DNA of 64,000 nucleotides. Source: Verrucomicrobiia bacterium. GTDB lineage: Bacteria > Verrucomicrobiota > Verrucomicrobiia > Verrucomicrobiales > DEV007. The DNA is taken from NCBI GenBank assembly GCA_030427505.1, contig JAUICH010000007.1, positions 124,001 to 188,000 of the forward strand. The letters are read 5' to 3'. This document shows positions 18,627 to 60,850 of the stretch, piece after piece; the stretch's first letter is position 1; each line of letters opens with the position of its first letter. Under the pieces are notes generated by a model, which was given only the letters and a program-made list of their open reading frames with translations, had not been told where the DNA came from and did no database searches. Position numbers and translations under genes: made by a program.

Positions 18627-18839
18627 GGGTGTGTGGACAAATTCCCGAACCGCCCGGAATAGATGAAAAAGGAAGACAGAATCAGCGCCGCAAGCGGCGA
18701 ATTTTCCAAAAACGAGGCCCATTTTACGCCTGGCTGCGTTCCGCCTCACTCTATTGGGGTCACCCAACGGCGTTCGGCGCGCCTTGCCAGCCGAAAAATG
18801 GCCTCGCGCCGGGCAGTCCGCCAATTTGTCCACACACCC
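18627..18839. repeat. Inverted-repeat element A, copy 2
   Basis: 213 bases with perfect 17-bp terminal inverted repeats: GGGTGTGTGGACAAATT at 18627-18643 and its complement at 18823-18839. The interior is homologous to copy 1 at 12813-13097. It lies 25 bases upstream of the sulfatase start and could therefore influence its expression. No transposase or clear target duplication was seen. Confidence 0.85.
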
Positions 18840-56933: not shown

Positions 56934-57081
56934 GCAAGGTATCTTGAATATTCAGAGAAGGTAGAAGAGGGTTTCCACGGGGGGCGCGTGAGTCGAATTC
57001 GTTGACAGAAATTGAGTTGGAATGCGTCAAAGAACATCGTAAAGGATGCGGTGCCCCGCCTCAGTTCCATCTTTCCGCCCC

Positions 57082-58440
57082 ATGGCTTCTGATCCGACCT
57101 CCAGCGGACCCGCGTCCTCTCCAATGGCGACGGGCTTCTGCCCCAGTGTCGTTATCGTGGGCGGCGGACCGGCGGGCTGCACGCTGGCGGCCCTCCTGAC
57201 CCTGGGGAACGTGCCCGTCGCCATCGTGGATGAAGAACGGCCCACGGACCTGCTGGTGGGCGAGTCCCTCATTCCCTCCGTGGTGCCGCTGCTCCAGCGC
57301 CTGGGCATCGAGGAGCGCGTGGCCGCCATGGGCACCTACAAGCCAGGCGTCTCCTTTCAGCACAGCGGCGGTCACGAGATCCGTTTTCGCTTTCAACCCT
57401 TCGAAGGGGCTTCGCCGCCGTATGCCTACAACGTGCCGCGCCCGGCCTTCGACCGCCTCTTGCGCGAGCGCGCCGCGGAGCTGGGCGTCTGCCGCGTGGA
57501 GGGCCGGGTGAAGCTGGAGGCGGACCGGGAGACCGGGACGCTGCGGCTGGCGGAGGAGTCCCTGGCGCTCTTTCCGGGGCTGGAAGGCCGGCAGCCGGAC
57601 CTGCTGGTGGACGCCACGGGCCGGACCCGGCTCTTTGCCCGCGCCCTGGGCATTCCGGCCCGGCGCGGCAACCGGACGGACGTGGCTTACTTTGCGCATT
57701 ACCTGGGCTCGAAACTGGAGGAACCGGAAGGCCAGGTGGTGATCGACCGCCTGGAGAACGGCTGGAGCTGGCGCATCCCGCTCCAGGGCCGCGTCTCCGT
57801 GGGCGTTGTGCTGCCGCTGGAGGAAGCGAAGAAGCTGGGCGCCACCCAGGAGGACCGCCTGGAGGCCGCCATTCGGAGCAATCCACGCCTCGCGGCGCCG
57901 CTGAAGAACGCGGAACGCGGCACGGAGGTGCTTACCTATTCCAACTACCAACTCATCTCGGAAACCGGCGCCGGTCCGGGCTGGGTGATGGCGGGGGATG
58001 CCTACGGCTTTGTCGATCCCATGCTGTCCTCCGGCCTCTTCATGGCCATGGAGTCCGCCAAGCTCCTCGGCGATCGACTGGTGAAAGCCTATCGCGGCGC
58101 GGAGGGGGCGGGTGCCTGCGTGCCCAGTCCGGCTCGCCTGCGGCAGGCCTGCGAACGGGCCGTCGCGGAGACCCGGGAATGGCTGGTGGCCTGGGAGCGG
58201 CTGATCGAAATGTTTTACGACGGGCGCATTTTCGCCCTGGGCCAGGCGGAGGGGCAAAAGGTAAACGTGCCCATCCTGAGCGGGCTGGTGGAAATCGTGC
58301 AGCGCCACACGAAGCGGCAGGTGGCCGGCATGGCCGCCGGGGCGCTCACCCGCTCCGCCTACAGCCGTGGGGCCGTGAATTTCGTGTCCCGCTACCTGGT
58401 GCGTGGCGTGGATCCGCCTGAAGAATTAGCGATCCGTTAG
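57082..58440 (+). CDS. FAD-dependent halogenase-like oxidoreductase, second
   Basis: 452 residues from the ATG of ASDPTSSGPAS (the ATG at 57124 is possible). The dinucleotide site is VVIVGGGPAGCTLAALL; LVGESLIPSVVPLL follows; WSWRIP (about residue 228) matches WxWxIP; GDAYGFVDPMLSSGLFMA is the C-terminal flavin motif. It is divergent from the PagL-like gene. It shares the architecture of the flavoprotein at 49279 but is only moderately similar. Whether it halogenates, hydroxylates or reduces prenyl chains cannot be told. It is followed by repeats, so it is probably a single-gene unit. Confidence 0.85.
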   Translation: MASDPTSSGPASSPMATGFCPSVVIVGGGPAGCTLAALLTLGNVPVAIVDEERPTDLLVGESLIPSVVPLLQRLGIEERVAAMGTYKPGVSFQHSGGHEIRFRFQPFEGASPPYAYNVPRPAFDRLLRERAAELGVCRVEGRVKLEADRETGTLRLAEESLALFPGLEGRQPDLLVDATGRTRLFARALGIPARRGNRTDVAYFAHYLGSKLEEPEGQVVIDRLENGWSWRIPLQGRVSVGVVLPLEEAKKLGATQEDRLEAAIRSNPRLAAPLKNAERGTEVLTYSNYQLISETGAGPGWVMAGDAYGFVDPMLSSGLFMAMESAKLLGDRLVKAYRGAEGAGACVPSPARLRQACERAVAETREWLVAWERLIEMFYDGRIFALGQAEGQKVNVPILSGLVEIVQRHTKRQVAGMAAGALTRSAYSRGAVNFVSRYLVRGVDPPEELAIR

Positions 58441-58590
58441 CCTGAATGGCACTCGGATAAGCGTGGTGACCGGGTCTGTTACGGGATACCATTGCGATGC
58501 AATTACCGGCTAGGTATCGCGCGGCCTTCTCGCCGGATGTGCGCCCCAAAGTTTTGCGCGCCGGACCTGGCTGATCGTCCTCGCGGGGCA
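58441..58590. other. Intergenic DNA before palindromic element D
   Basis: About 150 bases without a gene or clear terminator. It leads directly into the palindromic element. Confidence 0.35.
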
Positions 58591-58815
58591 TGAGCGCCAA
58601 CGGCGCGCCGCATACCAGCCTGGGTCGCAAGGCCCAGGTTAGGCGGATTGATAAATTTCGAGGGCTGAAGGCCCGGCGCATGTGGGCGCGCCGTGACTCC
58701 GCCGCCATCCCCAGGGGGATGCGCCGGACCTACGGCCCTCGATATTCATGGGGACCCGTTTTCCTGGGGCTCGCGCCCCAGGCTGGTATGCGCCGGGCCG
58801 TTGGCCCTCCGGCCC
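58591..58815. repeat. Palindromic element D, copy 3 (full palindrome)
   Basis: 225 bases in mirror order: a left half GCGCCGCATACCAGCCTGGG, then CGAGGGCTGAAGGCCC and GGCGCATG; a right half GGGGATGCGCCGGACC, GGCCCTCG, then CCTGGGGCTCGCGCCCCAGG and CTGGTATGCGCCG. It is related to the copies at 43501 and 44611 and to the tail of the window. It is a large potential cruciform with no coding content. Confidence 0.85.
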
Positions 58816-58924
58816 TGAGACCCCGGTGAAGCGATTTCATCGGCGATCTGTCAGTGCCAGTCGCCGCCGTCGAAGGGCTCGACTTGACCGGTCGCCGCGC
58901 TCAACCGAGTGCCATTCCCGTTAG

Positions 58925-59097
58925 CCTGCATTTCTCACCAGTTCTCGTGGCGAGACGCCGCGAGGCCTGTCCTGACAGGCGCGCGAAGATCTTTTCGCGG
59001 GACTGTATGAGTACATACTGTTCGAGAAAAAATCGAGCGGAACGCCGACAATGCGGGCCACAGCAAGTCGCAGCCGGGAACTGGTGAGAAATGCAGG
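58925..59097. mobile_element. MITE-like element F with target duplication
   Basis: 173 bases bounded by perfect 20-bp terminal inverted repeats, CCTGCATTTCTCACCAGTTC and its complement, and flanked on both sides by TTAG (58921-58924 and 59098-59101). The 4-bp direct repeat is the mark of a transposition event. The interior has no gene. It is a non-autonomous element that would need a transposase from elsewhere. The family cannot be named from sequence alone. Confidence 0.9.
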
Positions 59098-59176
59098 TTA
59101 GGCTTCTCCGGGGTAAGCATCTCGACTCCTTCAACAGGGAGAGGCGTCCGGGTGCGCTCTTTTCCGGCCAGCGGTT

Positions 59177-60850
59177 TCACTCCACCTCATCCGCGCCCAC
59201 GTCGGGGGCCTTCCCTAGGAAGTAACCGGGCTCGCAGCCGGGGAGCGGCTTTCCGTCCAGGTAGGTGGAAAGATCCAGACCGGCGTCGATGGCGGGGGAG
59301 CCGGGGGCGGGTTTGCCGTTGGCGTCGTGGGAAATTTCCACGCCGTAGCGGCTGCCCGTGTCGCGGTCCGGGGTGCCTTCGGGCCAGGGGCGTTCTTTGC
59401 CGCCGGAAATGTTGTGAGAGGTCGTGAAGTCCAGCGCGGGCTTTTCGCTGGGCTCGCAGAAACCGCGATCGTTCAGGGTGAGGTTATTGAGGAAATGCCA
59501 CTTCGGCGCGACGAAGTCCCGCCTCCGGGAGTCGCGGCTGACTTCCAGGAATTCCCGGTGCCCCCCTACCACGGTGTTGTGATAGACGTAGGCCTCGGCG
59601 GGGGAGGCGTCCATGCTGAACCACACATTGAAGGGCGAGCCGTCGATGAGGCGGTTGTGATGGATGTAGAGAGGGCCGAGCCGGGGCAGCTTGAAGCGCA
59701 GGCCGCCGTGGGTCTGACGAAGAGTGTTGTGATGCACCTTCACGTCCACACTACCGGCGCCGAGTTCGATGCCGGAGTCGCGGGTGTTTTCGATGAGGTT
59801 GCGCGCGATCTCGGCGCCCTGACAGTGGGCCGGATCGGGCAGGGGGATGTCCAGAGACTCGGCCTTGTAGTCTCCCAGCGCGATGCCGTCGAACACGCGG
59901 TGCAGGTGGTTTTCCAGCACGCGATTGTCCGCGCCGGCCCGCAGGAGGACGATGCCGTTCCGGTCGGAGTAGCCGGCGCTCTTGTGCAGTTGCCAGATTT
60001 CGTAATTCCCCCGGCTGTGTTCCAGGGGTGGCCGCCATTCTTCCAGGGAGCCTCGCGTAATGTCGCAGCCCTGGATGGTGCACCGGGTGGCGCCTGCGGT
60101 AAGCACGATGCCGGTATCCTCAAAGGAGGTGATGGTGACGTTCCGCACCACGCAGTCCCGCGCCTGGTCGAGCCACACGCCGTAGCCGCCGTGAGCCAGG
60201 GTCAGCCCCTCCACGGTGACGTTCTCCGTTTCGGATATGCGGACGAGCGGATTCCGGGACGGGACCCAGGACAGGCGGGAGCCTTCGGGCTTAGCCCTAT
60301 CTGGCAGGCGAAGGTAGAGCCTTTTCTCCCGCGGGTGGTAAACCCAGAGGGCGAGGATCTCGTCGAAGTGGCTGAGGGGCGTGCCTTTGGCCAGCAGGGT
60401 CTGCCACTGCCAGTCGCCTTCTTTCTGGGCCTTGTCGAAACGGATCTCGGCGATGAATTTCCGGTCCCAGAGCAGGCCAACGGGTTTGCTGCCGCTCTCC
60501 GCCGTGTAAACGCCGGGCAGATCGCCGCCCGCCGGTTCCCACGCCAACGCGAGCGGTTCGGAACCCTCCAGCGTCGCGCCGGGCAGGCCGCGCAGGGTGA
60601 GGGGTTTTCCAATGTCCAGCGACTCGCGGTAAGCGCCGGGCTCGACGATCAGCACGTCGCCCGGGGCGGCTAGCTTGATGGCATCGGAGATGGGCTGGGC
60701 GTGGGGCTTGTCGCTGGGGGAGACACGGATCTCCGCGGCGTTGGCGGGTAGAGAGGACAGGCCCATCGCCACAATGGCGGCGGTGAGGGCGGGCAACACC
60801 AGGAGCAGGCGGGTAACCAGGGGGTCCGGCATGGCGAAAGGATCGCACAT
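59177..60850 (-). CDS. Secreted right-handed beta-helix protein
   Basis: 557 residues (or 551 from the ATG at 60832). A signal peptide (LLLVLPALTAAIVAMGLSSLPANA) precedes a DUF1565-like start (HAQPISDAIKLAAPGDVLIVEPGAYRE split by strands) and parallel beta-helix coils (ENVTVEGLTL, DCVVRNVTI, TRCTIQGCDI, DNRVLENHLH, EIARNLIEN, DVKVHHNTLRQ). It ends with a DVGADE motif common in polysaccharide-degrading beta-helix proteins. Candidate activities are polysaccharide lyase or epimerase; catalytic residues were not identified. It is 73 bases downstream of der. Confidence 0.88.
   Translation of the reverse strand: MCDPFAMPDPLVTRLLLVLPALTAAIVAMGLSSLPANAAEIRVSPSDKPHAQPISDAIKLAAPGDVLIVEPGAYRESLDIGKPLTLRGLPGATLEGSEPLALAWEPAGGDLPGVYTAESGSKPVGLLWDRKFIAEIRFDKAQKEGDWQWQTLLAKGTPLSHFDEILALWVYHPREKRLYLRLPDRAKPEGSRLSWVPSRNPLVRISETENVTVEGLTLAHGGYGVWLDQARDCVVRNVTITSFEDTGIVLTAGATRCTIQGCDITRGSLEEWRPPLEHSRGNYEIWQLHKSAGYSDRNGIVLLRAGADNRVLENHLHRVFDGIALGDYKAESLDIPLPDPAHCQGAEIARNLIENTRDSGIELGAGSVDVKVHHNTLRQTHGGLRFKLPRLGPLYIHHNRLIDGSPFNVWFSMDASPAEAYVYHNTVVGGHREFLEVSRDSRRRDFVAPKWHFLNNLTLNDRGFCEPSEKPALDFTTSHNISGGKERPWPEGTPDRDTGSRYGVEISHDANGKPAPGSPAIDAGLDLSTYLDGKPLPGCEPGYFLGKAPDVGADEVE

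Follow-up and report, generated by a model that had tools for sequence, protein, structure and literature searches.

The window is the whole 64,000-nucleotide stretch analysed here, from contig JAUICH010000007.1 of a Verrucomicrobiia bacterium. A MITE of 173 bp lies in it at positions 58925-59097, between an open reading frame on the left (57046-58440, + strand) and a converging one on the right (59177-60850, - strand). Its terminal inverted repeats, CCTGCATTTCTCACCAGTTC at 58925-58944 (+ strand) and its counterpart at 59078-59097 (- strand), match perfectly over exactly 20 bp; the 26-nucleotide arms, which include some flanking bases, are 92% complementary. The four bases TTAG are found on both sides, at 58921-58924, where they are common to the MITE and the element on its left, and at 59098-59101. 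This confirms the preliminary description of a MITE at 58921-59101 with perfect 20 bp ends and a TTAG duplication. Its membership of a multicopy family, the YTAR-flanked neighbour that adjoins it and the conservation of its interior go beyond that description. There is no transposase gene in it, and the open reading frames that overlap it are short. The 15-base end of the MITE occurs at no other place in the window with up to two mismatches, and at three places with three mismatches.

REPs are not known to have a target duplication or long inverted ends. With its 173 bp, TTAG duplication and 20 bp inverted ends, the MITE falls outside this class of GTAG/CGTC-tagged palindromes, which according to PMC3733652 are 20-40 bp long and carry the tetranucleotide GTAG or CGTC as a tag.

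The genome to which the window belongs (6.41 Mb in 56 contigs, 96.5% complete) has 13 near-full copies of the MITE, the window copy included, that are 81-100% identical to a 181 bp query, as well as fragments. The flanking 4-mers are equal and of the form YTAR (CTAG, TTAG, TTAA or CTAA) in 12 of the 13, far above chance; the exception, L004, has CTGG and CTAG. Because the outer bases agree as well in these 12 copies, YTAR is taken as the duplication, and a TA duplication was dropped. In a fourteenth copy (L014) the right end is degraded and the core described below scores 86.5 bits. Two shrunken copies (L018 and L019) have paired ends, have lost most of the interior and are flanked by 4-mers that no longer match. 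From the clean ends and intact duplication a recent insertion had been proposed. This is unsupported: the copy closest to the window MITE is 90% identical, mean pairwise identity among the 13 copies is 87%, and all that intact ends provide is a limit on how long ago the insertion took place. Among the genomes drawn for comparison (57 relatives and 74 of the family) the window's own is the sole representative of its genus. The 17-base MITE end was found in no stretch of the viral contigs, and elements of the MITE type gave no match in plasmids (two queries) or phages (one query).

The element adjoining the MITE on its left, at 58441-58920, is also multicopy. It is 480 bp long, has NNNGAATGGCACTCGG ends and is bounded by TTAG on both sides. 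MITE copies abut ends of this element at a common YTAR in L003 and L014 (on the left), in L013 (on the right) and in the window at 58921-58924; the right CTAG of the MITE is followed in L004 and L011 by an end of the GGCAG..TGGACAAATT type. Equal YTAR flanks are present in 11 of the 12 copies of the 480 bp element read with both ends. The three bases between YTAR and GAATGGCACTCGG vary by copy and by end, CCT being the commonest, yet at 23 of 24 ends the 13 bases that follow are intact. We know of no mechanism that explains the variable trinucleotide.

A scan of a genome collection with YTAR followed by the 15 outermost bases of the MITE end found at least 116 stretches. The 80 for which titles were displayed include MAGs of Deltaproteobacteria, Bryobacterales, Verrucomicrobia, Gammaproteobacteria, Nitrospira and Eisenbacteria. 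Complete elements selected for equal YTAR flanks number at least 42 (among the 116 listed loci and L210), and 23 of the 42, among the matches listed, are 176-178 bp long. Ten genomes bearing such elements were searched for PF13701, the IS1380 transposase domain; six have matches, five of them above the cut-off. One Bryobacterales MAG contains two intact IS1380 elements, L198 (1723 bp, CTAA on both sides) and L204 (1724 bp, CTAG on both sides). Their left ends match the 15-base MITE end at 14 and 15 positions, respectively, and their right ends at 12 in both. The encoded transposases match NF033539 (E 3e-115 and 4e-115), that of L204 also PF13701 (E 8e-147). L204 is inserted within a MITE; L088 and L108 contain this MITE without the interruption and with one CTAG in its place. 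Full-length insertion sequences with the same ends, the check suggested in the preliminary description, therefore exist with near-identical ends.

In the window's family, PF13701 matches occur in 19 of the 74 genomes and exceed the cut-off in 13. Among the 20 family loci whose ends were inspected, two (L243 and L245) are IS1380 elements with CCCGCATTTCTCA-type ends and CTAG duplications, sharing 11-12 of 15 bases with the MITE end; both have a stop within the transposase match. The mobiliser of the MITE is most likely an IS1380-family transposase, judging by the similar ends and by the duplications of equal length at a YTAR target. Against this assignment, the window's own genome has no IS1380 transposase match, and L198 and L204 each depart from the MITE at 3 of the 15 right-end bases. 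Since that genome is 96.5% complete and in 56 contigs, a collapsed or missing copy is possible. The proposal that the transposase acts in trans from elsewhere is thus supported by elements with matching ends in other genomes, and a source within the own genome was not found.

The MITE is too short to code for a transposase, and its core was not found in the IS1380 elements. The model R1 of the MITE core finds no match in L204, L243 or L245 at E values up to 10, and its one match in L198, of 15 bits, is not within the element. An origin of the interior by deletion from the IS1380 copies seen was accordingly dropped. IS1380 is a prokaryotic transposase family distantly related to piggyBac, as described in parts of PMC10140906. 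The eukaryotic piggyBac elements likewise duplicate 4 bp, TTAA; the target of the MITE is broader and its host bacterial, so that this is a resemblance only.

The interior of the MITE contains a structured core at 58946-59076 (+ strand), which is a strong match to the models R1 and R2, both built from interiors alone, and a weak one to R3. It scores 129.9 bits with R1, whose training set contains the window copy, and 25.9 bits with R3 (E 0.0012, L001); the R2 match is at L213:2010-2140. Read on the + strand, the core begins with the 5' strand of a conserved internal loop 1 (CGTGGCGAGACGCCGCGAGG, 58946-58965), followed by the 5' strand of helix A (58966-58976) and that of a conserved internal loop 2 (AGGCGCGCG, 58977-58985). 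The central hairpin CTGTATG-AGTA-CATACTG is at 59003-59020. On the 3' side come loop 2 (GAGCGGAACGC, 59035-59045), helix A (59046-59059) and loop 1 (GCAAGTCGCAG, 59063-59073). Helix A covaries, with both-side changes at 12 of 12 pairs (helix 4). The loops are asymmetric and mostly 70-100% conserved, and the adjacent helices are rewritten.

In relatives of the same family, YTAR is mostly kept and certain interior blocks are retained, with changed ends (CCCGCATTTCTCATG, CCCGGATATTTCATG, CCYGCATTTCTCAAG and others). Apparent reuse of YTAR sites could be a way in which ends and cores become combined. The alignment A2, made from sequence only, comprises 18 interiors without ends, and omits L009 (internal deletion) and 12 rows of the genomes G032, G025 and G012 that were misaligned in helix A. 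It folds as a rod; 16 of its 40 pairs are doubly changed, with 65 cells as against 21.1 when shuffled and 5-18 when slid. Both-side changes rise to 23 of 40 pairs in A3 (32 sequences) and to 31 of 40 in A4 (54 interiors, loci repeating a copy already included being omitted), where 323 cells compare with 95.8 shuffled and 35-80 slid; since the model guided the alignment of A3 and A4, both are inclined in its favour. Covariation thus exceeds the controls, as expected of a structured RNA. Copy L012 has an arm altered over about 10 bases so that it matches the opposite arm. This resembles hairpin-templated correction, and part of the covariation may therefore be mutational. Against Rfam at lax thresholds, five elements gave nothing beyond sub-threshold matches (0, 6, 1, 1 and 1), and the sole match for nine loci at the gathering threshold was outside the element, a group II intron (RF00029, L188:179-251, 40.6 bits with gathering at 40). 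The core looks like a conserved folded RNA that matches no Rfam family at threshold.

A strand preference is seen in the window's family, where G-U cells outnumber A-C cells by 221 to 27 on the + strand, although one near-invariant U-G pair gives 50 of the 221. In A2, for pairs that are at least 70% Watson-Crick, the G-U to A-C ratio is 30 to 3 on the + strand and 8 to 18 when the minus strand is used for both folding and counting. The corresponding numbers for A1, from which the spurious row L069:171-303:- was removed beforehand, are 39 to 9 and 6 to 17. The signal is weak in the 13 own copies alone (21 to 7 on +, 7 to 7 on -). The distant alignment A5, after removal of three element rows without readable orientation, does not support it, with 16 G-U and 6 A-C on the + strand and 23 G-U and 3 A-C on the - strand. 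The + strand gives the better fold in 43 of 54 interiors.

Neighbouring genes, oriented by heuristic gene calls, show a related tendency. The upstream gene is co-directional in 8 of 11 callable own copies (14 examined, p 0.23) and in 18 of 23 callable copies of relatives (37 examined, p 0.011); a cruder earlier call put the own copies at 9 of 12. Counting against the RNA reading, the gene downstream lies antisense in 9 of 11 own copies (p 0.065) and 15 of 22 in relatives (p 0.13). The start of the element lies no more than 1 bp from the stop codon called for the upstream gene in L005, L061, L075 and L315, which an overlap of YTAR with TAG or TAA stops would be expected to produce. The G·U/A·C bias and the gene context favour, but do not show, an RNA made from the window's + strand; the claim is kept at this level because the strand test fails in A5 and an arm is rewritten in L012.

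With the own genome included, R2 matches occur in 22 of 74 genomes and 8 of 18 genera of the window's family (E 1e-4), and in 3 of 288 genomes of a sample of the phylum (E 1e-5). One of the three, G360 (a single contig of 2.3 Mb), has 11 matches, and the six that were read have CGGCCATTTCTCAC-type ends with CTAG on both sides in five and CTAA in one. The distant searches with R1 and R2 covered 100 of the at least 116 loci from the end scan; of these 100, 15 have R2 matches at E<0.01, 16 matches in all. R3 was built from 20 distant interiors (Bryobacterales where titled), chosen from loci with an R1 or R2 match or similar ends and oriented by the loop-2 motif. Of the 53 family loci it recovers 35 at E<0.0033, agreeing in strand with R2 in 35 of 35, a cross-finding that is not fully independent because of how its interiors were preselected and oriented. 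Among the 48 loci searched here with R3 are matches in MAGs of Deltaproteobacteria (L082, 2e-7), Acidobacteria (L131, 7e-7), Nitrospira (L124, 3e-5) and Chromatiaceae (L151, 5e-5). Per genome (11 genomes, E 0.001), R3 finds at least 150 cores in each of two, then 73, 8, 5 and 1. It finds none in the other five, and common ends therefore do not always imply a common core. Model matches of about 30 bits were dropped as proof when taken alone, since a palindrome (L073) reaches 30 bits with R1 on the wrong strand.

The own genome also contains about 30 weaker R1 matches. Paired ends of GGGTGTGTGGACAAATT or GGCAGTGTGGACAAATT were found in 13 of 14 such loci examined, with TA on both sides in 10 of the 13; the sequences at L282 and L283 are compatible with duplication of TA at TTAA. 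The main subfamily shares CAAGGCGCGC and GCGGAACGCAG with the consensus of the window MITE's family, and L279 scores 38 bits; a GGCAG subfamily differs, with GCGGGAACGAAG. A copy with GGGTGTGTGGACAAATT ends and the loop-2 motif lies in the window at 18627-18839 (- strand), scoring 28.1 bits with R1 at 18707-18811, and its family has many matches in the own genome. TA is found on one side only of this copy. From the TA duplication we take this second family to be MITEs of the IS630/Tc1-mariner type, although the own genome has no match to DDE_3 (PF13358); the window MITE, unlike them, has YTAR as its duplication.

The MITE resembles NEMIS/Correia, ERIC, CIR, QMITE and TIME elements in being short and in the inverted ends that most of them have, and its RNA would form a long stem-loop as their transcripts do. 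According to PMC2229807, PMC10969869 and PMC4133298, some transcripts of bacterial MITEs may act on adjacent mRNAs, ERIC depending on orientation, and phylogenetically conserved RNA structures are proposed for CIR repeats. The window core differs from these elements in having two defined loops and covarying helices and in recurring across phyla and with different ends. By its title, a study of intergenic RNA motifs in Borrelia plasmids (PMC2674063) also concerns phylogenetically conserved RNA structures. IS1380 is not mentioned in the text of PMC10969869. No published description of the core was found among open-access PMC papers, which does not imply its absence from print. The novelty is the conserved interior, a MITE with these ends and duplication having been noted already.

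Taken together, we consider it probable that the MITE is moved by an IS1380-family transposase and carries a folding core selected on one strand, which most likely acts as RNA. The transposase would recognise the ends, insert the element at YTAR and duplicate those 4 bp. The core of about 130 nucleotides between the ends would be selected for a fold on one strand, a long hairpin without branches that includes two internal loops of conserved sequence and whose basal helix the inverted ends would form. Sense read-through from the upstream gene could place this rod in the 3' region of an mRNA, where it may be bound or processed.

That the core works as DNA, its extruded or single-stranded hairpin being a cis part of transposition that binds or spaces the IS1380 transposase, appears unlikely. 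The clustering of complete elements at 176-178 bp, the ends as a basal helix and the strand test in A5 are consistent with such a role. Against it stand the lack of an R1 core in L198, L204, L243 and L245 and the existence of copies shortened by deletion to 39 and 62 bp that have paired YTAR (L189 and L171). Elements whose ends differ and whose duplication is TA also carry the loop-2 motif, and the G-U bias of the window's family is not expected from a cruciform. We regard it as improbable that the core is a functionless palindrome, kept complementary by hairpin-templated repair and spread by amplification and horizontal transfer: the arm rewriting in L012 and the long stable hairpins usual in MITE transcripts (extracts of PMC10969869 and PMC2229807) agree with this, but templated repair would also pair the loop strands, which are instead asymmetric and mostly conserved, and the core recurs with different ends, its loop-2 motif even in a family with unlike ends.

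The reading of the core as an RNA selected on one strand can be extended, tentatively, beyond the window's family. The core may be a selected RNA module, new to Rfam, that rides MITEs of unrelated transposases (the IS1380 type at YTAR, with several ends, and the TA type) across phyla, reaches at least 150 copies in some genomes and works within host mRNAs, in their 3' regions; we hold this to be possible rather than probable.

Bacterial MITEs are often seen as deleted transposons with arbitrary insides. A fold and loops that outlive the ends suggest selection on the action of the element and not only on its mobility. With its many natural copies, the core provides an RNA family open to testing, and ties an orphan repeat to IS1380.
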